Position numbers and translations under genes: made by a program
Notes under the pieces: model-generated
Told to the model about the DNA's origin: nothing
The model's input: the letters and a program-made list of their open reading frames with translations, nothing else
Database searches by the model: none
Part shown: positions 17,962 to 38,976 of the stretch, piece after piece
Position numbering within the stretch: position 1 is the first letter of the stretch
Layout of the letters: each line of letters begins with the position of its first letter
Origin: Marinobacter sp. es.042
Lineage (GTDB): Bacteria; Pseudomonadota; Gammaproteobacteria; Pseudomonadales; Oleiphilaceae
DNA length: 64,000 nt
Direction of reading: 5' to 3'
NCBI RefSeq assembly: GCF_900188315.1
Contig: NZ_LT897781.1
Span: 682,001 to 746,000 of the forward strand

Positions 17962-18816
17962 TCAGCAACCAGCCTCGATAACCCGAACCATCGGTTCCCC
18001 GCGGCTTTCGGGAATTGGCAGAATCCCATACCAGGATCGCGGATCGTGCACCGTGGCGGAGGCAAACCCACAGGACAGGAAGTGTTCCCGTGCCTCTTCG
18101 TCGGTCTGGAAGTGGAAAGATACCTCGCTGCGGGTTACGGCCCCGAGGACGCCACCGAGGGCTTTGAGGGTGGTGTTCAGCAACGGCTGGCGGGGTTGGT
18201 AGTAGCTCTCGGAGAGGTAAATGGAGCCCGGGCGTTTGGCCATGGCAGCGGCTAGGCGGTGCCAGAACTCGCTGATGGTCGGCAGTGAGAAGTAGCTGGT
18301 CAGGCCTTCGGTGATAATGATCACCGGTTCGGAATTCTCAAATACCCGGTCGATCACTTTTTCCAGTTGATACTCGCCGTAGTCCGCGAGGATATCGATC
18401 GGCGTGACCTGGTGGTGGTCGCCGAGTCGGCCCGTGGCCATCAGGCGCAGTGCTTTGCGAGCCGCCATGTCGGGCAGGTCGGCTTCGACCACATGGAGTA
18501 GGGGGTGTTTCTGGCGTAACCGAATGCCTCTTGGCGACATGCCGCAGGCGATTTCCAGCACTTGTGTAATGCCCTTGTCGCGGATGGCCTGATCAATCAG
18601 GTGGTCGATAATCAGATGTCGTTGCAGCAGGAAGGTGCGGATGTTTCCGCCGATGGCGGCCTGACTGGCGGCTTCGAAGGGGGTCATCAGGCGATAGATC
18701 CAGCGGCCCTTTTCCGTAACGAGGGTGTCGTCAGAGAGCCCGTACCGGTGCCAGACGGCACCGGTATACAGGGCAGTGAAGCTGATGCCAGAGCTGTCAG
18801 TCGGCTTTCTGCTCAT
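17962..18816 (-). CDS. Class I SAM-dependent methyltransferase (LCM/PPM family)
   Basis: This 284-residue protein resembles the leucine carboxyl methyltransferase/TcmP-like family. The SAM-binding motif I is visible as VLEIACGMSPRGIRL and an acidic motif II as LLHVVEADLPD. The family-type segment IIITEGLTSYFSLPTISEF follows. The substrate is unknown. The start overlaps the end of the uracil permease gene by 20 bp, so the two are probably co-transcribed with upp. Neither domain nor context ties it to flagella. Confidence 0.8.
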   Translation of the reverse strand: MSRKPTDSSGISFTALYTGAVWHRYGLSDDTLVTEKGRWIYRLMTPFEAASQAAIGGNIRTFLLQRHLIIDHLIDQAIRDKGITQVLEIACGMSPRGIRLRQKHPLLHVVEADLPDMAARKALRLMATGRLGDHHQVTPIDILADYGEYQLEKVIDRVFENSEPVIIITEGLTSYFSLPTISEFWHRLAAAMAKRPGSIYLSESYYQPRQPLLNTTLKALGGVLGAVTRSEVSFHFQTDEEAREHFLSCGFASATVHDPRSWYGILPIPESRGEPMVRVIEAGC

Positions 18817-20053
18817 AGACGGCTTTACCCCATGCCTCGCGGCTGCCGGGGAGTATCAGGTTCAGGATGATGGCAGCCACCGCGCACAACGCGATGCCCT
18901 CCAGGTGCCCGAGCACCATGCCGCCGATACCGAACACCAGGGTGACACCCACGATAACCAGGTTGCGAGACTGTGACAGATCTACCTGGTGGCGGATCAG
19001 TGTGTTCAGGCCAACGACGGCAATGGAACCGAACAGCAGGCAGAGGATGCCGCCCATGACGGGTACCGGGATCGTCTGCAGTGCTGCGCCGAACTTGCCC
19101 ACGAAAGCCAGAACAATGGCGATGCAGGCAGCCCACCACATGACCTTGGGGTTGAAGTTCTTGGTGAGCATAACCGCGCCGGTGACTTCCGAGTAGGTGG
19201 TGTTGGGCGGTCCACCGAGCATGGAGGCGGCGCTGGTGGCCAGGCCGTCACCCAGCAAGGTGCGGTGCAGGCCCGGCTTTTCCAGGTAGTTCTTGCGGGT
19301 TACGTTGCCGATGGCCAGCACGTCACCGATGTGTTCAATGGCCGGCGCAATGGCGACGGGGATCATGAACAGCACGGCGCCCCAGCTGAATTCCGGCGCC
19401 ACAAAGTTGGGAACCGCAAACCAGGCGGCGTCCCGGATTGGCGTGGTATCCACGATCCCGGCAAACGCGGAGAGGATGTAGCCGGTGATAACACCGAACA
19501 TGATCGGAATCAGCCGGAAAATGCCTTTCGACCAGACCGACATGATGATGGTTACGGCCAGCGAGATCATGGCGATCCAGATGGCAGTGTCGTAGGGAAT
19601 CAGCTGGTTCGCGCCATCACCGGTGCGGCCGGAGGCCATGTGAACGGCAACCGGCGCCAGGCCGAGACCGATAGTCATGATCACGGGGCCGATGACCACC
19701 GGCGGCAACAGGCGGCGGACAAAACCGGTGCCTCGCAGCCGCACCAGTCCACTGAGGAAAATATAGAGAATACCCGCCGCCATCAGGCCGCCGAGCGTCT
19801 CTTCCATGCCGAACTTGCCTTTGGAGGCAATCACGGGGGCAATAAAGGCGAAGGACGACGCGAGGAAAATCGGGATCTGACCGCCGGTCACCACGTGAAA
19901 GATCAGGGTGCCCAGGCCGGCGGTGAACAGGGCCACGTTGGGATCCAGCCCGGTAATCAGTGGCATCAGAACCAGCGCGCCGAACGCCACCAGCAGCATC
20001 TGGGAGCCTGCAATAGCCTGTTTCCAGACCGGGTCGTTGGTATGGTCCTGCAT
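18797..20053 (-). CDS. uraA: Uracil permease (NCS2 family)
   Basis: This 418-residue polytopic membrane protein belongs to the nucleobase:cation symporter 2 family and has hydrophobic segments throughout. The motif FAIAPAIEHIGDVLAIGNVT-type segment (VAIAPAIEHIGDV) contains the substrate-binding glutamate of UraA, and LGGPPNTTYSE is the second half-helix motif. It begins 2 bp after the upp stop, a common uracil salvage arrangement. It imports uracil for Upp to convert to UMP. Confidence 0.93.
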   Translation of the reverse strand: MQDHTNDPVWKQAIAGSQMLLVAFGALVLMPLITGLDPNVALFTAGLGTLIFHVVTGGQIPIFLASSFAFIAPVIASKGKFGMEETLGGLMAAGILYIFLSGLVRLRGTGFVRRLLPPVVIGPVIMTIGLGLAPVAVHMASGRTGDGANQLIPYDTAIWIAMISLAVTIIMSVWSKGIFRLIPIMFGVITGYILSAFAGIVDTTPIRDAAWFAVPNFVAPEFSWGAVLFMIPVAIAPAIEHIGDVLAIGNVTRKNYLEKPGLHRTLLGDGLATSAASMLGGPPNTTYSEVTGAVMLTKNFNPKVMWWAACIAIVLAFVGKFGAALQTIPVPVMGGILCLLFGSIAVVGLNTLIRHQVDLSQSRNLVIVGVTLVFGIGGMVLGHLEGIALCAVAAIILNLILPGSREAWGKAVYEQKAD

Positions 20054-20055
20054 TC

Positions 20056-20694
20056 TTAAACGTCCTTTTGCTTGGTGCCGAAGATTTTGTCACCGGCATC
20101 GCCGAGACCCGGAAGGATGTAGCCTTTGTCGTTGAGGCGCTCATCAACGGAGGCAGTGTAAATAGACACGTCCGGATGTTTTTCCAGAACCTTTTCAACG
20201 CCTTCAGGCGCGGCAACCAGAACCAGGGCCCGGATCTCGGTGCTGCCAGCCTTCTTGAGCAGGTCAATGGTGGAGATCATTGAGCCACCGGTGGCGAGCA
20301 TCGGATCGACAATCATGGCCATGCGCTGGTCCAGTTCGCCCACCAGCTTTTCAAGGTAGGTGCTGGCCTCGAGGGTTTCCTCATTGCGGATCTGGCCGAC
20401 AACACTGACCCGGGCCACCGGAATCAGGCTGAGGACACCGTCAAGCATGCCAAGGCCGGCCCGCAGGATCGGCACGATGGTGACTTTCTTGCCGTGAATC
20501 TGTTCCACGTTAACCGGCCCTGCCCAGCCTTCGATGGTCTTTTCCTGCAGATTGAAGTCTTTGGTGGCCTCGTAGGTCAGGAGTGCACCGACTTCCTGTG
20601 CCAGCTCCCGGAAATTCTTGGTGCTGATATCCGCACGGCGCATGATGCCGAGCTTGTGGCGGATCAGAGGGTGTTTTACCTCGTGGATTGGCAT
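20056..20694 (-). CDS. upp: Uracil phosphoribosyltransferase
   Basis: This 212-residue enzyme converts uracil and PRPP to UMP. The PRPP-binding loop [14 protein letters not shown] and the C-terminal uracil-binding segment [16 protein letters not shown] are intact. The length matches E. coli Upp (208). It is the first gene of the minus-strand upp-uraA-methyltransferase unit. It is divergent from flhA, with 218 bp between the two starts. Confidence 0.97.
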
Positions 20695-24529: not shown

Positions 24530-25342
24530 ATGAGCAGAGCACATCCGGTACAGGTGATTGCAGTTTCCGGCGGAAAGGGTGGTGTCGGCAAGAGTAACGT
24601 GTCGGTGAACCTCGGAATTGCCCTGGCGCAGAAAGGCCGGAGAGTGGTACTGCTCGACGCCGATCTGGGGCTCGCCAATATCGACGTCTTGCTGGGCATC
24701 ACTGCCAATCGTAACCTCCAGGATGTTCTGGCCGGCGATTGTGATCTGAAGGACGTTCTGGTGAATGGTCCCGGTGGCATCAAGATTGTCCCCGCCTCTT
24801 CCGGTACCCAACGAATGACCCAGCTCAGCCCCATGGAACATGCCGGGCTGATTAATGCGTTCAGCGAACTGGGTGATCAGATCGATGTTTTGATAGTGGA
24901 TACCGCTGCCGGTATCTCCGAATCTGTGGTCAGTTTTCTCAGGGCCTCCCAGGAGCTTTTGCTGGTAGTGTGTGACGAGCCCACGTCCATTACTGACTGT
25001 TACGCTTTGATTAAACTTATGAACCGCGAGTACGGCACCAATCGGTTCCGTATTCTTGCCAACCAGGTCCGGAATGAACAGGAAGGCCGGCATCTGTTCG
25101 AAAAACTGACACGGGTCACCGAGCGCTTCCTGGATGTGGCACTACAATACGTAGGAATAGTCCCCTACGATGAGGCCGTGAAGAAAGCGGTTCAGCGGCA
25201 GCGTGCGGTGCTGGACGCCTATCCCAGGGCGAAAGCTTCGCTGGCCATCAAGGCGCTGGCGGACAAGGTAGATAGCTGGCCGTTGCCGTCCTCTCCCCGC
25301 GGGCATCTGGAATTTTTTGTGGAGCGGCTCGTCGAAGTCTGA
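24530..25342 (+). CDS. fleN: Flagellar number regulator FleN/FlhG (MinD-like ATPase)
   Basis: The start at ATG 24530 (MSRAHPVQVIAVSGGKGGVGKS) gives 270 residues; the frame is open from 24473 without a better start. This is a ParA/MinD ATPase with the deviant Walker A GGKGGVGKS and a DADLGLANID motif. The switch motif VDTAAGISESV follows. FleN binds the activator FleQ and limits flagella to one per pole in Pseudomonas. Position between flhF and fliA is canonical. Confidence 0.95.
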   Translation: MSRAHPVQVIAVSGGKGGVGKSNVSVNLGIALAQKGRRVVLLDADLGLANIDVLLGITANRNLQDVLAGDCDLKDVLVNGPGGIKIVPASSGTQRMTQLSPMEHAGLINAFSELGDQIDVLIVDTAAGISESVVSFLRASQELLLVVCDEPTSITDCYALIKLMNREYGTNRFRILANQVRNEQEGRHLFEKLTRVTERFLDVALQYVGIVPYDEAVKKAVQRQRAVLDAYPRAKASLAIKALADKVDSWPLPSSPRGHLEFFVERLVEV

Positions 25343-34874: not shown

Positions 34875-35267
34875 ATGTTTGCAGAAATTCCTTCATACCT
34901 TCCCTGGGCGCTGACTGTTGCCGCCCTGTCTCTGGTTTTCGTTCAGGGCCTCGTTCTCGGGCGTCAGGTACGTAGCCTCAGAGCAACGCTGAAAGAGCGC
35001 TGTGATATCCTCGGCCGGGAACTGCATGCCACTACCAGTGGCAGCATGGGGGTAGGGCAGCGGTTGGTTAGCTGTGAGCGTCAGTTGCACGAGCTGAGGA
35101 CCACGCTCGACGAAATGCGTCAGAACGATCCGCTGCGAATCTCATACGATGAAGCCTCTCGGCTGGTTGATCTCGGCGCCGATATCGACGATCTTATGAA
35201 CACGTGCGGAATTTCCCGTCCCGAGGCCGAGCTGGTGTCAGCACTCAGAAAACGTCAGGCGGCCTGA
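34875..35267 (+). CDS. DUF2802 membrane-anchored protein of chemotaxis clusters
   Basis: This 130-residue protein has one N-terminal transmembrane helix (LPWALTVAALSLVFVQGLVLG). A basic/coiled region follows, then a C-terminal DUF2802-like segment (DEASRLVDLGADIDDLMNTCGISRPEAELV) that looks like a helix-turn-helix-type fold. Similar genes follow cheW in Pseudomonas. Its function is not known. It begins 67 bp after cheW. Confidence 0.75.
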   Translation: MFAEIPSYLPWALTVAALSLVFVQGLVLGRQVRSLRATLKERCDILGRELHATTSGSMGVGQRLVSCERQLHELRTTLDEMRQNDPLRISYDEASRLVDLGADIDDLMNTCGISRPEAELVSALRKRQAA

Positions 35268-35293: not shown

Positions 35294-37576
35294 ATGAAGA
35301 GAGTCTATCCGAGGGCCCTTGAGGCCCTTCGATCTGTATCCCGCCATGATTTTGTTTCCGGTTCCGACCTGGTTGCCTCGATAACCGGCCACTCCATTCC
35401 CCGCGAAGAAACTGTCGGCCACATTCTTTCCCTGCTCCCGGAAATAGAACCGGATCAGATTGTGATGCATGTGGGCGGTGGCTCAGGCTATTTTGCCGCT
35501 GTGCTGTCCGGGCTCGCCCATCGGGTCCTGTGCGTGGAGCGGAATGCCATTGTCGCCGAGGCTGCCAGAGAGCGGTTTGTCCGTCTGGGTATGCACAATG
35601 TGGATGTCGTTGTTGCCCGTGCGGAAGAGGCGCCGGAGCCTGATCCACTCTGTGATCTCGTGTTGTGTACCTCGTTTATCAGGGACCAGACTGCACTGGC
35701 GCACCTGGTTCGTGAGGGGGGGCACCTGGTGTGTCTTGAAGGGCGAGCGGGACCCGTCCCGAGCCTGGCCATGTTCGAAAAACAGGGTGCCAAGCTCAAG
35801 CGTGTGCGCACCCTGGGCTGGGTCGACTTCAACCGTAACGTCGAGCAGATCCTCATTGATCAGGGCGTCGTGGACGAAGCGGTCCTGGCCGAAGCAAAGG
35901 CGGAGGCAGCGAAGCAGAATTGCCGGCTGCTGGAGGTGCTCCGGCGGAAACTGAATCTTGAAGAGATTGATCTCTACCGTTCTCTTGCCCGTCAGCGGGG
36001 CATGACCTTCACCGACGCGGACGAGCTTCTGCCGGATCTCCATCCGGCGCTGTTCCGGCGATTTTCCCGAACGTTTCTGGATCTCTCACGACTGATACCC
36101 ATCGCCGAGGAAGATGGCAGGATCACGGTTGTGACCGACGATCCCGATGCGCGCACTGATCAGCTCGAGCGGTTGAGTCCTAACCAGGTGGTTGACTGTC
36201 TTCTGGTTACACCGACGGACTTTCGCCGGCTCTGGTCAGCTCTTGATCTGACTGCCAAAGGGCGCCGCTTTGCGGCGGATCAGGAACCAACCCCGAACCA
36301 GGCGGCGGACCCGACTGGCAGCAAGGTCCAGCTTCTGGGCAAGGATCCGAAAAACAAGCACGTCAGCCCCTATCTGGTGTCTGTTTACGAAGCCATTCTG
36401 ATGGACGCTGTAAGTGAAAAAGCCAGCGACATCCATATAGAACAGTACGGTGACCGGATTCGTATTCGCCTTCGGGTGGATGGCGATCTTCATGATCTGC
36501 CCCAGTACCAGCTGTCGGCCCGGGAGATGAAAGGGGTGATTAACGTCATCAAGCTGCGGGCAGAGCTGAACATCGCCGAGCACCGGCTGCCCCAGGGTGG
36601 GCGGTCCCGGCTGCAGCTCGGCGATATGGCCTACGATCTGCGGATACAGACCCAGCCTTCGCTCCATGGCGAACATGCCGTTATACGTCTGCTGCCGCAG
36701 ACCGGCCGCGCCATGACCATTGCCGAACTTGGCATGTCATCCATGATCGGTGCCCGTTATCAGCGCTTGCTGGATAACCCGGCGGGACTGGTGCTGGTGG
36801 TCGGTCCGACCGGGTCAGGCAAGTCCACCACGCTGTATGCGGGGCTGCAGACCCTTGCCGATGACGGCCGCCGGAAAGTTATCACGGTGGAAGACCCCAT
36901 CGAGTACTCCATCGACAACATTCAACAAACCCGGGTCAGATCAGAAATTGGCTTTGGTTTCGCCGATGCCATGAGGGCGTTTGTCCGGGAAGATCCGGAT
37001 GTCATTCTGGTGGGCGAGATCCGTGACCAGGAAACCGCTCTGGAGGCGATACGGGCCTCCCAGACCGGCCACGTGGTTCTGTCCACGCTGCACTGCAACG
37101 ACGCGGTGGATTCACTGCAGCGCTTGTATGATCTGGGTATCCACCCGAATTCCATTGCCGGTGAGCTGCTGGCTGTCATCGCCCAGCGGCTGGCCAAGCG
37201 CATCTGCAAGCATTGTTGCCAGCCTGCAGAGCCGGACCCGGTGATTGTGTCCGAGGTGTTTCCCGACGGCCCGCCCGCGGATTTCCGGTGTTTTCAGGGC
37301 GCCGGTTGTGACAAATGCAACGGCCGCGGCACCCAGGGGCGAGTGGCGATCGTCGAGTATATGGAAGTTGATTCGGACATCCGGAATGCCATTTCCAGCC
37401 AACCGCCCATCGGTGAGCTTCGCTGGCGCGCTCTCGATGCCGGACTGGTGACCATGCGGGACAGTGCTCTGGACCATGTTATTGAAGGCATAATTCCGCT
37501 GTCCGAACTGCCCCGTATTCTCCCGAGAGAGCGCATGGCACCGGAAGTTCGCGGCGGCCGCAGGAGTCAGGAATGA
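35294..37576 (+). CDS. Fusion of PCMT-like methyltransferase, MshEN and GspE/PilB-type ATPase
   Basis: This 760-residue protein joins parts usually found separately. Residues about 1-190 resemble protein-L-isoaspartate methyltransferase, with a changed SAM loop (VMHVGGGSGYFAAVL, 58-71). Residues about 195-330 resemble the MshEN domain; the usual RLG of the c-di-GMP motif reads NVE in the first copy and RLL in the second. Residues about 370-735 are a secretion ATPase with Walker A GPTGSGKST (504-512), Walker B DPDVILVGEIRD (from 567), a His box (TGHVVLSTLHCND) and a zinc site Cys638, Cys641, Cys672, Cys675. No pilin, platform protein or secretin gene is nearby. It overlaps the next ATPase by 4 bp. 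Confidence 0.85.
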   Translation: MKRVYPRALEALRSVSRHDFVSGSDLVASITGHSIPREETVGHILSLLPEIEPDQIVMHVGGGSGYFAAVLSGLAHRVLCVERNAIVAEAARERFVRLGMHNVDVVVARAEEAPEPDPLCDLVLCTSFIRDQTALAHLVREGGHLVCLEGRAGPVPSLAMFEKQGAKLKRVRTLGWVDFNRNVEQILIDQGVVDEAVLAEAKAEAAKQNCRLLEVLRRKLNLEEIDLYRSLARQRGMTFTDADELLPDLHPALFRRFSRTFLDLSRLIPIAEEDGRITVVTDDPDARTDQLERLSPNQVVDCLLVTPTDFRRLWSALDLTAKGRRFAADQEPTPNQAADPTGSKVQLLGKDPKNKHVSPYLVSVYEAILMDAVSEKASDIHIEQYGDRIRIRLRVDGDLHDLPQYQLSAREMKGVINVIKLRAELNIAEHRLPQGGRSRLQLGDMAYDLRIQTQPSLHGEHAVIRLLPQTGRAMTIAELGMSSMIGARYQRLLDNPAGLVLVVGPTGSGKSTTLYAGLQTLADDGRRKVITVEDPIEYSIDNIQQTRVRSEIGFGFADAMRAFVREDPDVILVGEIRDQETALEAIRASQTGHVVLSTLHCNDAVDSLQRLYDLGIHPNSIAGELLAVIAQRLAKRICKHCCQPAEPDPVIVSEVFPDGPPADFRCFQGAGCDKCNGRGTQGRVAIVEYMEVDSDIRNAISSQPPIGELRWRALDAGLVTMRDSALDHVIEGIIPLSELPRILPRERMAPEVRGGRRSQE

Positions 37577-38676
37577 GCAACAAGCAATCGGTTACAAAGG
37601 CAGCCCAGCGGGAACCGGCAGAAGTGGTCTATGCCGCCGAGCTGGACAAGCTGAGAGAGATGGACCATGGCCCGGTGCCACCCGGCTGGCAAATGTCCCC
37701 GCGAGCGGTGGAAAAGTTCGTGATGGGGGATGAGAAACTCGGCATTGAGCGGAAGTTCGTGGCGGAGCGTGCCATGGTGGTCCGGATCATCATTTCCCTG
37801 TGCACCAGTCGCGGGTGCCTGCTGGTTGGCGAGCCGGGAACGGCCAAATCCTGGTTGTCGGAATTGCTGGCTGCCGCCATTTCGGGTGGCTCTACCCTGA
37901 CCTTGCAGGGAGGGGCGGTGAGCGACGTAGGGCAACTGCTGTACAGCTGGAACGAGGCGATCTTGCATACCGAGGGGCCGTGTTTGAAAGCGCTGGTTCC
38001 GAGCCCGTTGCTGCGGGGCATGATGGAGGGTCGAATGGTGCGGTTTGAAGAGATCGCCCGCTGTCCACAGGCGCTGCAGGATGCGCTGCTCTCGGTTCTG
38101 TCCGACAGGGTTGTGGTGATTCCCGAGCTGGCGGGAGACGACGGGGTGGTGCTTGCGCGAGAGGGCTTTAACGTCATCGCCACGTCCAACAGTATCGATG
38201 AGGGAGTGCACCGGATGAGCGCCGCCCTGAAGCGGCGCATGGACTTCGAGGAAATCCGCCCGATCCGCAATCTGGCCGATGAGATGGATGTGGTTCTCCG
38301 GGAGGTTGGTAGGGCCAACAGTCGGGCCGGGATTGAGGTGGCACTTGAAGAATCGGTCATCGAGGTACTGGTGACCATGTTCCACGAGCTGCGCAATGGT
38401 CAGACCCTTGATGGACGCAGTACCGACCGACTCGCCGGTTCGGCGCTGTCGACGGCGGAAGCGGTTTCGGTGGCTCACGCGGCCAGCCTGAACGCCTGGT
38501 ATTACGGCGGGGGCAGTATCACGGTGGAGCAGCTAATGCACCACATCATCGGTTCAGCCCTCAAGGACCAGCCCGAGGACCGGCGCCGGCTGCGTCATTA
38601 CTTTGAAACCACCGTGGCGCCCAGGCGTGGTGATAACTGGCAGCAGGCCTGGGCGCTCCGATCACTGATTCACTGA
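37573..38676 (+). CDS. Orphan MoxR-like AAA+ ATPase
   Basis: This 367-residue ATPase of the AAA_5/MoxR type has Walker A GEPGTAKS at residues 86-93 and sensor-1-like FNVIATSNS. An arginine-finger region lies near ALKRRMDFEEIRPI. The Walker B position reads RFEEI instead of the usual hhhhDE. MoxR ATPases normally act with a von Willebrand A protein; none is encoded next to it, though an unrelated MoxR-Bat set lies at 47734-54698. It overlaps the fused ATPase gene as ATGA, so the two are probably translated together. Substrate unknown. Confidence 0.8.
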   Translation: MSNKQSVTKAAQREPAEVVYAAELDKLREMDHGPVPPGWQMSPRAVEKFVMGDEKLGIERKFVAERAMVVRIIISLCTSRGCLLVGEPGTAKSWLSELLAAAISGGSTLTLQGGAVSDVGQLLYSWNEAILHTEGPCLKALVPSPLLRGMMEGRMVRFEEIARCPQALQDALLSVLSDRVVVIPELAGDDGVVLAREGFNVIATSNSIDEGVHRMSAALKRRMDFEEIRPIRNLADEMDVVLREVGRANSRAGIEVALEESVIEVLVTMFHELRNGQTLDGRSTDRLAGSALSTAEAVSVAHAASLNAWYYGGGSITVEQLMHHIIGSALKDQPEDRRRLRHYFETTVAPRRGDNWQQAWALRSLIH

Positions 38677-38976
38677 ATCATCCGACGCGCCGGGTTTGCG
38701 ATCGTCCGGGGTTAGCCCGCGAATATGGAAGGCAAATGCCAGGATTTCCGCAATCACCCGGTACAGCGACTCGGGAATTTCTTCGTTCAGTGACAGGCGC
38801 GCCAGAATGCTGGCCAGCTCGGCATTTTCATAAAGGGGAACATTGTGCTCCCGGGCGATGCGGATGATCTCTTCCGCCAGCTCATGGGTGCCGGTGGCGC
38901 TGATGGTTGGCGCTTTCTCGCCATCGTACTTGAGCGCAACGGCGGCTCTGCTGTGATGCTCTGTCTCTGAGGTCAT
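38662..38976 (-). CDS. FlhB C-terminal-domain-like export switch protein (FlhX/YlqH type)
   Basis: This 104-residue protein corresponds to the cytoplasmic FlhB domain without membrane helices (AAVALKYDGEKAPTISATGTHELAEEIIRIAREHNVPLYENAEL). It lacks the NPTH cleavage site and starts at the position where cleaved FlhB would. Such proteins can replace part of FlhB in some bacteria. Its 4-bp overlap with the FliK-like gene upstream pairs the two export-control proteins. Its end overlaps the convergent AAA+ gene by 15 bp. Confidence 0.85.
   Translation of the reverse strand: MTSETEHHSRAAVALKYDGEKAPTISATGTHELAEEIIRIAREHNVPLYENAELASILARLSLNEEIPESLYRVIAEILAFAFHIRGLTPDDRKPGASDDSVNQ

Follow-up and report, generated by a model that had tools for sequence, protein, structure and literature searches.

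A motor ATPase fusion with a PIMT-derived domain and an adjoining MoxR-family ATPase gene form a two-gene module in Marinobacter and other bacteria

We found that a Marinobacter gene encoding a PIMT/PCMT-like domain, an MshEN-like domain, and a GspE/PilB-type motor ATPase in one frame is paired with a directly following gene for a MoxR-family AAA+ ATPase. Comparative genomics shows this module in its domain makeup, co-occurrence, adjacency, joint presence or absence, and persistence without flagella; its pilus target is something that we infer. Altogether, the results suggest a little-studied two-gene module that is not an ordinary part of a pilus or a flagellum. The parts are of known kinds, and it is their combination, together with the conserved motor-MoxR pair, that looks new. 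Neither the fusion nor the pair is described in any title or abstract found in our literature search, which covered few subscription journals. Our best reading, to which we assign a probability of about 0.45, is that the fusion would be an accessory type IV pilus-class motor carrying a pseudo-PIMT docking or ligand domain and remodeled by its own MoxR ring.

RESULTS

A three-domain fusion gene overlaps the start of a MoxR gene

The window (i.e., the whole 64-kb stretch of DNA that was analyzed) belongs to a 3.94-Mb genome on a single contig. The following features of the window are used throughout.

35294..37576, + strand: fusion motor gene, PCMT-MshEN-T2SSE, 760 aa
35294..35821, + strand: PIMT/PCMT-fold domain, residues 1 to about 176-180
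35831..36262, + strand: MshEN-fold domain with degenerate c-di-GMP motif, residues about 180-323
36377..37510, + strand: T2SSE motor domain, residues 362-739
36803..36826, + strand: Walker A, residues 504-511
37205..37318, + strand: tetra-cysteine (zinc) site, C638 C641 C672 C675
37505..37567, + strand: conserved C-terminal tail of the fusion, residues 738-758, just 5' of the next gene's start
37573..38676, + strand: MoxR-family AAA+ ATPase, 367 aa, start overlapping the fusion stop by 4 bp
34875..35267, + strand: DUF2802 gene (context), bordering on the left the site that is empty in strains lacking the pair
38662..38976, - strand: FlhB C-terminal-like protein, presumed FlhX (context), right edge of the empty site
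24530..25333, + strand: MinD-like ATPase, FleN by place (context), the name being inferred from position

The fusion is a single real open reading frame with an ATG start, on which Pfam places PCMT, MshEN, and T2SSE domains. Together with the fold match, this confirms the observation of an earlier sequence-only reading that PCMT-like, MshEN-like, and GspE-type ATPase parts share one 760-residue frame. An assembly artefact was ruled out: a frame of the same cluster is present in 79/80 loci, with the remaining one (L136) assigned by hand. These 80 loci are the best of a genome-contig scan, in which more exist. The 81 aligned fusion sequences, window copy included, are all distinct. We took one protein of 846 aa (P0099), in which the fusion is joined to MoxR and the end of the motor is missing, to result from an internal deletion or from assembly. 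Our AlphaFold models are of single chains, and the fold search does not list every family, so that absences there carry no weight.

Among the best 120 of 586 protein matches, full-length relatives come from Marinobacter, Pseudomonas, and Halopseudomonas, and a search with the N-terminal part adds Wenzhouxiangella. The best 80 loci come from Marinobacter, Alishewanella, Arsukibacterium, Alkalimonas, Porticoccus, Spongiibacter, Zhongshania, Wenzhouxiangella, and Halopseudomonas, as well as from one Geobacter MAG, two Myxococcota MAGs, and one Planctomycetota MAG. Since the fusion was found in just 2/369 genomes of an even sample of the class (E 1e-150, two candidates scored per genome), it appears to be rare and patchy. 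The M. segnicrescens copy groups beside a Halomonas MAG, and the copy of Pseudomonas sp. TTU2014-080ASC falls inside Marinobacter on a long branch. These placements suggest that the fusion may have been transferred horizontally.

The motor is of the GspE/PilB type and forms a clade of its own

The motor domain has the features of the GspE/PilB superfamily, namely a T2SSE domain, Walker A, Asp and His boxes, and a tetra-cysteine site. Every checked residue of pilus/secretion-type ATPases is conserved in it, and it is the slowest-evolving part of the protein. The motor residues and the tetra-cysteine site thus support the proposed intact GspE-type ATPase with a zinc site.

The intact T2SSE and MshEN fold would also be expected of an ordinary PilB/TfpB-type motor to which a decorative extension had been added at the N terminus. 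However, the fusion scores far below the curated cut-offs for PilB (TIGR02538, 411.8 versus 675.65), GspE (TIGR02533, 403.8 versus 630.25), and TfpB (NF053534, 351.6 versus 850), though the same genome holds separate PilB, GspE, and TfpB genes that exceed them, along with an MshE-like motor below them. In addition, the 29 fusion rows of the motor tree form one clade (support 99/100) separate from the PilB, GspE, MshE-like, TfpB, and PilT-like rows, with long branches flagged by the program and two identical PilT-type rows from overlapping loci counted as one. Given also the conserved MoxR partner described below, we consider an ordinary motor of this type very unlikely.

An RGG in the C-terminal tail is found in most MoxR-bearing members and is absent in L133, L136, and L137. 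We considered the tail as a possible MoxR tag; the RGG stretch adjoins the moxR start, a place where one would expect a ribosome site.

The c-di-GMP motif of the MshEN region is not matched in the family

None of the 81 fusion sequences matches the c-di-GMP motif (two 24-residue RLG motifs) in a relaxed test; L028 (two) and L038 (one) gave positives. This suggests that c-di-GMP binding has probably been lost, in line with the earlier remark that the RLG positions look lost and that ligand binding may have changed. The Planctomycetota copy (L136:7914-10220) retains the GDG of PIMT and more of the MshEN pattern (LLGDILVELG, RLGDAL), and is perhaps nearer the ancestor; it fails the relaxed test too.

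Among annotated neighbors, a GGDEF/EAL gene lies just upstream of the fusion only in the Alishewanella/Arsukibacterium group. This gene belongs to cluster C39, whose L105 member identifies it as GGDEF/EAL. Its end overlaps the fusion by 4 bp in L103, and a gap of 61 bp separates the two in L105. It may tie to c-di-GMP a family that lacks the corresponding motif.

The N-terminal PIMT fold differs at the isoaspartyl-binding signature

The N-terminal domain scores over the cut-off for PCMT (PF01135) and matches the PIMT fold. The fold match confirms that this part is methyltransferase-like, and the lack of structural similarity that the sequence-only reading had named as counting against its proposal did not occur. 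On the functional-PIMT profile (TIGR00080), the fusion scores 49, below the cut-off of 159.05. Alignment to PIMT places S34-I35-P36 of the window copy at the Thr-x-Ser isoaspartyl-binding signature, with about 8 residues missing ahead of it. A role of the Thr-x-Ser residues in isoaspartyl binding is described in PMC11522691. Because this signature of the PIMT fold is changed, sensing or docking would be likelier than repair, which agrees with the sensing or binding domain proposed earlier.

Alternatively, the PCMT domain could be active as a methyltransferase, or sense SAM, and in this way modify or gate the motor or its partners. The GxGxG (residues 61-65 in the window copy) and the following acid (E82) are present in 79/79 fusion copies, and the dN/dS of the domain is 0.08-0.14 in nine comparisons; a value of about 0.1 indicates that purifying selection maintains the domain. 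The DG cofactor position is divided, with Asp in about half of the family members (38/79) and R-A in the window copy. However, the Ser of Thr-x-Ser is Pro in 78/79 copies, which, with the missing residues and the R-A, speaks against this alternative, as does the domain's divergence: among 41 distant proteins, its median identity to the window copy is 31% versus 75% for the motor. The closest named relative, a Marinobacter flavimaris copy that is 99% identical (genome-contig scan, best 80 loci; the L058 sequence equals that of L010), is interrupted within the PCMT domain by an in-frame stop, at codon 115 (L058:8001-10283), with the motor frame otherwise open from a later start. Either the PCMT domain of M. 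flavimaris is broken or the record is erroneous. The stop counts against an essential PCMT domain and not against the two-gene module, and it leaves our confidence in the best reading unchanged at 0.45. Overall, we regard an active or SAM-sensing PCMT domain that modifies or gates the motor as quite unlikely.

The fusion and the MoxR gene mostly occur together

The product of 37573-38676 carries an AAA_5 domain (Pfam), and its fold matches are led by NorQ and CbbQ2; an AAA+ fold, Walker motifs, and NorQ/CbbQ-like character identify it as a MoxR AAA+ protein. The MoxR gene lies directly 3' of the fusion in 77/80 of the best loci (76 by script plus L099 from a separate neighbor reading). The exceptions (L133, L136, and L137) are the two Myxococcota MAGs and the Planctomycetota MAG, in whose records the MoxR partner was not found. 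Of the 37 fusion genomes searched, all from outside the main Marinobacter set, 34 have MoxR at a threshold of 1e-20; in four of these, which are MAGs, the match is partial.

Presence and absence coincide as well: 17 of 38 related genomes have both genes and 21 have neither, these genomes not being independent and one of the 17 being the stop-bearing M. flavimaris copy. Seven of eight fusion-less Marinobacter show an empty site, where DUF2802 adjoins flhX, both genes are gone, and the cheA-fliK stretch is otherwise conserved; in the eighth (G004), the site is unreadable, as the contig ends. Outside the pair, the neighbors vary by lineage (outer-membrane efflux protein, superoxide dismutase, amidase, nucleoside enzymes, and permeases). 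No conserved third gene was seen beyond group level among the annotated neighbors (20 of 1224 ORFs called).

The database search for the spread and neighbors of this architecture, which the sequence-only reading had proposed, thereby revealed a MoxR partner that it had not foreseen. Its interpretation holds in part, in the domain readings; it did not anticipate the conserved MoxR, a spread that reaches from Gammaproteobacteria as far as MAGs of Myxococcota and Planctomycetota, or the independence of the flagellar neighbors (see below).

MoxR proteins are often paired genetically with VWA proteins (PMC9976466). Two VWA_CoxE queries gave 0 tblastn matches in the 80 loci (1.29 Mb) for homologues within query reach, and the motor gene occupies the VWA partner's usual place in this module. 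The closest other MoxR relatives, found in 11/369 class genomes with no fusion match at 1e-150, stand in different operons. Among the four of these 11 loci that were annotated, DUF5682 is present in 4, DUF5691 in 2, and DUF4132 in 1; VWA_CoxE is present in 2, i.e., both of the loci where such a gene was submitted. This sister operon (L165, L166, L169, and L174; e.g., L169:3711-9860), found in Gammaproteobacteria, comprises DUF5691 (or DUF4132), MoxR, DUF5682, and, where tested, VWA_CoxE. At the sister-MoxR places L164 and L171, the ORF list holds no MoxR frame.

Such operons raise the possibility of a MoxR-centered stress, protein-quality, or conflict system, in which the fusion would replace the VWA adaptor and no pilus would be involved. 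The lack of homologues of those VWA proteins in the 80 fusion loci and the patchy spread would fit it, as would the PADLOC results, which comprise a match of residues 30-153, in the methyltransferase part, to mad2 (8.9e-16) and short P-loop matches to mad8 and mad3. However, the mad2 match does not extend beyond the generic methyltransferase region, PADLOC finds nothing in the MoxR protein, and the motor, with all its checked pilus/secretion residues in place, evolves slowest. We therefore judge a MoxR-centered system without a pilus to be unlikely. A defense system was rejected, PADLOC having given just one domain-level methyltransferase match and two short P-loop matches.

The pair persists in Marinobacter lineages without FlhA

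Left of the fusion lie cheA, cheB, motAB-like, ParA, and CheW-like genes and DUF2802. Right of the pair lie the 38662-38976 gene, whose product we take to be FlhX, then FliK (opposite strand) and ccm genes; most neighbor names are assigned from sequence alone. The short FlhB C-terminal-like gene adjoins FliK; it converges on the MoxR gene, and the two overlap by 15 bp. On the minus strand of the flagellar region, 18797-20694 holds a uracil permease and a uracil phosphoribosyltransferase (similarity to L084).

The position between cheW-DUF2802 and flhX-fliK, common to 16/17 same-genus copies, would be explained if the pair belonged to the flagellar/chemotaxis system, e.g., as a polar energy source for placing the flagellar or chemosensory array. 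However, FlhA is unmatched in 20/41 distinct fusion genomes, many of them drafts or MAGs (21/42 genome handles, G002 being the same as L131). G002, listed as 99% complete, also lacks the cheA of this cluster, and 0/20 neighbors annotated outside the main Marinobacter set are flagellar. Five distinct FlhA-less fusion genomes are Marinobacter; in a supported tree they fall into two separate lineages (two changes forced by supported branches), both retaining the pair. Since the pair persists in these two FlhA-less lineages, its flagellar neighbors are not its function, and we find a flagellar or chemotaxis role highly improbable.

In the M. pelagius group and M. vinifirmus (L063, L065, L074, L084, L131, and L146), which have no FlhA match, the FleN-like gene, the orthologue of the window's MinD-like ATPase gene, is retained and lies directly 5' of the fusion; part of the regulatory gene set of the earlier flagellar cluster is retained too. 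In L084, what remains of this cluster is a sigma-54 regulator (FleQ, to judge by its place), a STAS/response-regulator pair, uracil genes (transport and salvage), FleN, the fusion, and MoxR; L074 keeps a similar, not identical, set. A functional trio of FleN, fusion, and MoxR was rejected given the other genes that L084 retains. So was a FleN link, FleN (1e-40) being found in 0/15 FlhA-less non-Marinobacter carriers searched. The retention of FleN may have another cause, e.g., FleQ, to which FleN is linked.

No platform gene accompanies the pair

Three GspF/PilC platform proteins used as tblastn queries gave 0 matches in the 80 loci (1.29 Mb in total, some with <8 kb on each side); as a control, the three queries recovered each other's loci. 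The 64-kb window holds no platform gene either. For platform genes, these results bear out the earlier statement that no pilus or secretion genes lie nearby. By the same search of the 80 loci, the fusion did not turn up in a pilus or T2SS locus, a placement that the same reading had named as telling against it. PilT and PilB matches in the 80 loci number 82 each, as expected from the fusion itself, and are unsorted. T2SSF is present in 33/33 fusion genomes; since it is also present in 25/25 related genomes with or without the fusion, this weighs little.

TfpB is described in PMC8213720 as a motor phylogenetically distinct from PilB and needed for pilus synthesis in Acinetobacter. The TfpB-type motor of our genome (L005, G000 1708742-1710316), which scores over the curated cut-off, has no T2SSF match nearby.

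DISCUSSION

In our best reading, the motor would represent a distinct GspE/PilB-type family, hexameric by analogy. On the example of TfpB, it may dock, in an accessory or conditional role, on a type IV pilus (or T2SS) platform whose genes lie elsewhere in the genome. The PIMT-derived pseudo-enzyme domain would act as a dock or as a SAM/ligand sensor, replacing c-di-GMP control. The MoxR ring would remodel, load, or unload the motor, which would be its client instead of a VWA partner. Three findings count against this reading, namely that no platform gene stands beside the pair in the 80 loci, that three deep members (the two Myxococcota MAGs and the Planctomycetota MAG) have the fusion without MoxR, and that the M. 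flavimaris copy has a stop in its PCMT domain. A more specific proposal, which we hold to be doubtful, is an undescribed two-ring machine in which the MoxR ring switches a pilus-class motor on its platform and the pseudo-PIMT domain, as a dock or small-molecule switch, replaces c-di-GMP control.

As we read it, the module bears on how one pilus platform chooses among motors and on how motors are loaded and removed. A motor and a MoxR ring that form one genetic unit would give a direct handle on motor choice, and the clients of MoxR proteins would extend to motor ATPases. With the fusion, there would also be a second case in which a PIMT fold has become a structural or regulatory component of a large machine. 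Culturable marine Marinobacter carry the module, and natural strains without it or without flagellar genes exist.

Comparison with known systems

With the type IVa extension motors PilB and TfpB, the fusion shares the MshEN and T2SSE makeup with a zinc site. TfpB is, in addition, a second, phylogenetically distinct motor whose gene, in this genome too, stands without a nearby T2SSF match. Unlike PilB and TfpB, the fusion has a PIMT-derived domain, a separate clade, and a MoxR partner. The c-di-GMP motif is missing from it as well; the genome's own PilB and TfpB are likewise unmatched by the relaxed motif.

The PIMT subunit of Paracoccus complex I (CI-PIMT) is likewise a PIMT fold recruited to a large machine. 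It is altered at the same positions of isoaspartyl and cofactor contact, and its description (PMC11522691) considers it inactive. It differs in being a separate subunit; in our protein, the fold is joined in one chain to a motor ATPase, has Ser at the Thr position, and keeps the GxGxG.

The pairs NorQ-NorD, CbbQ-CbbO, and RavA-ViaA resemble our module in their MoxR-type AAA+ member, as reflected in the leading fold matches. They combine MoxR with VWA proteins, whereas no VWA homologue was seen near our pair, and the genetic partner is a motor ATPase. Finally, archaeal type IV pilus loci of thaumarchaeal subclade 4A also link a MoxR/GvpN-class ATPase to a pilus-type system; there the ATPase gene comes with vWA and is linked to type IV pilus loci (PMC4858521), whereas here the MoxR gene neighbors a motor gene without a platform gene beside it.
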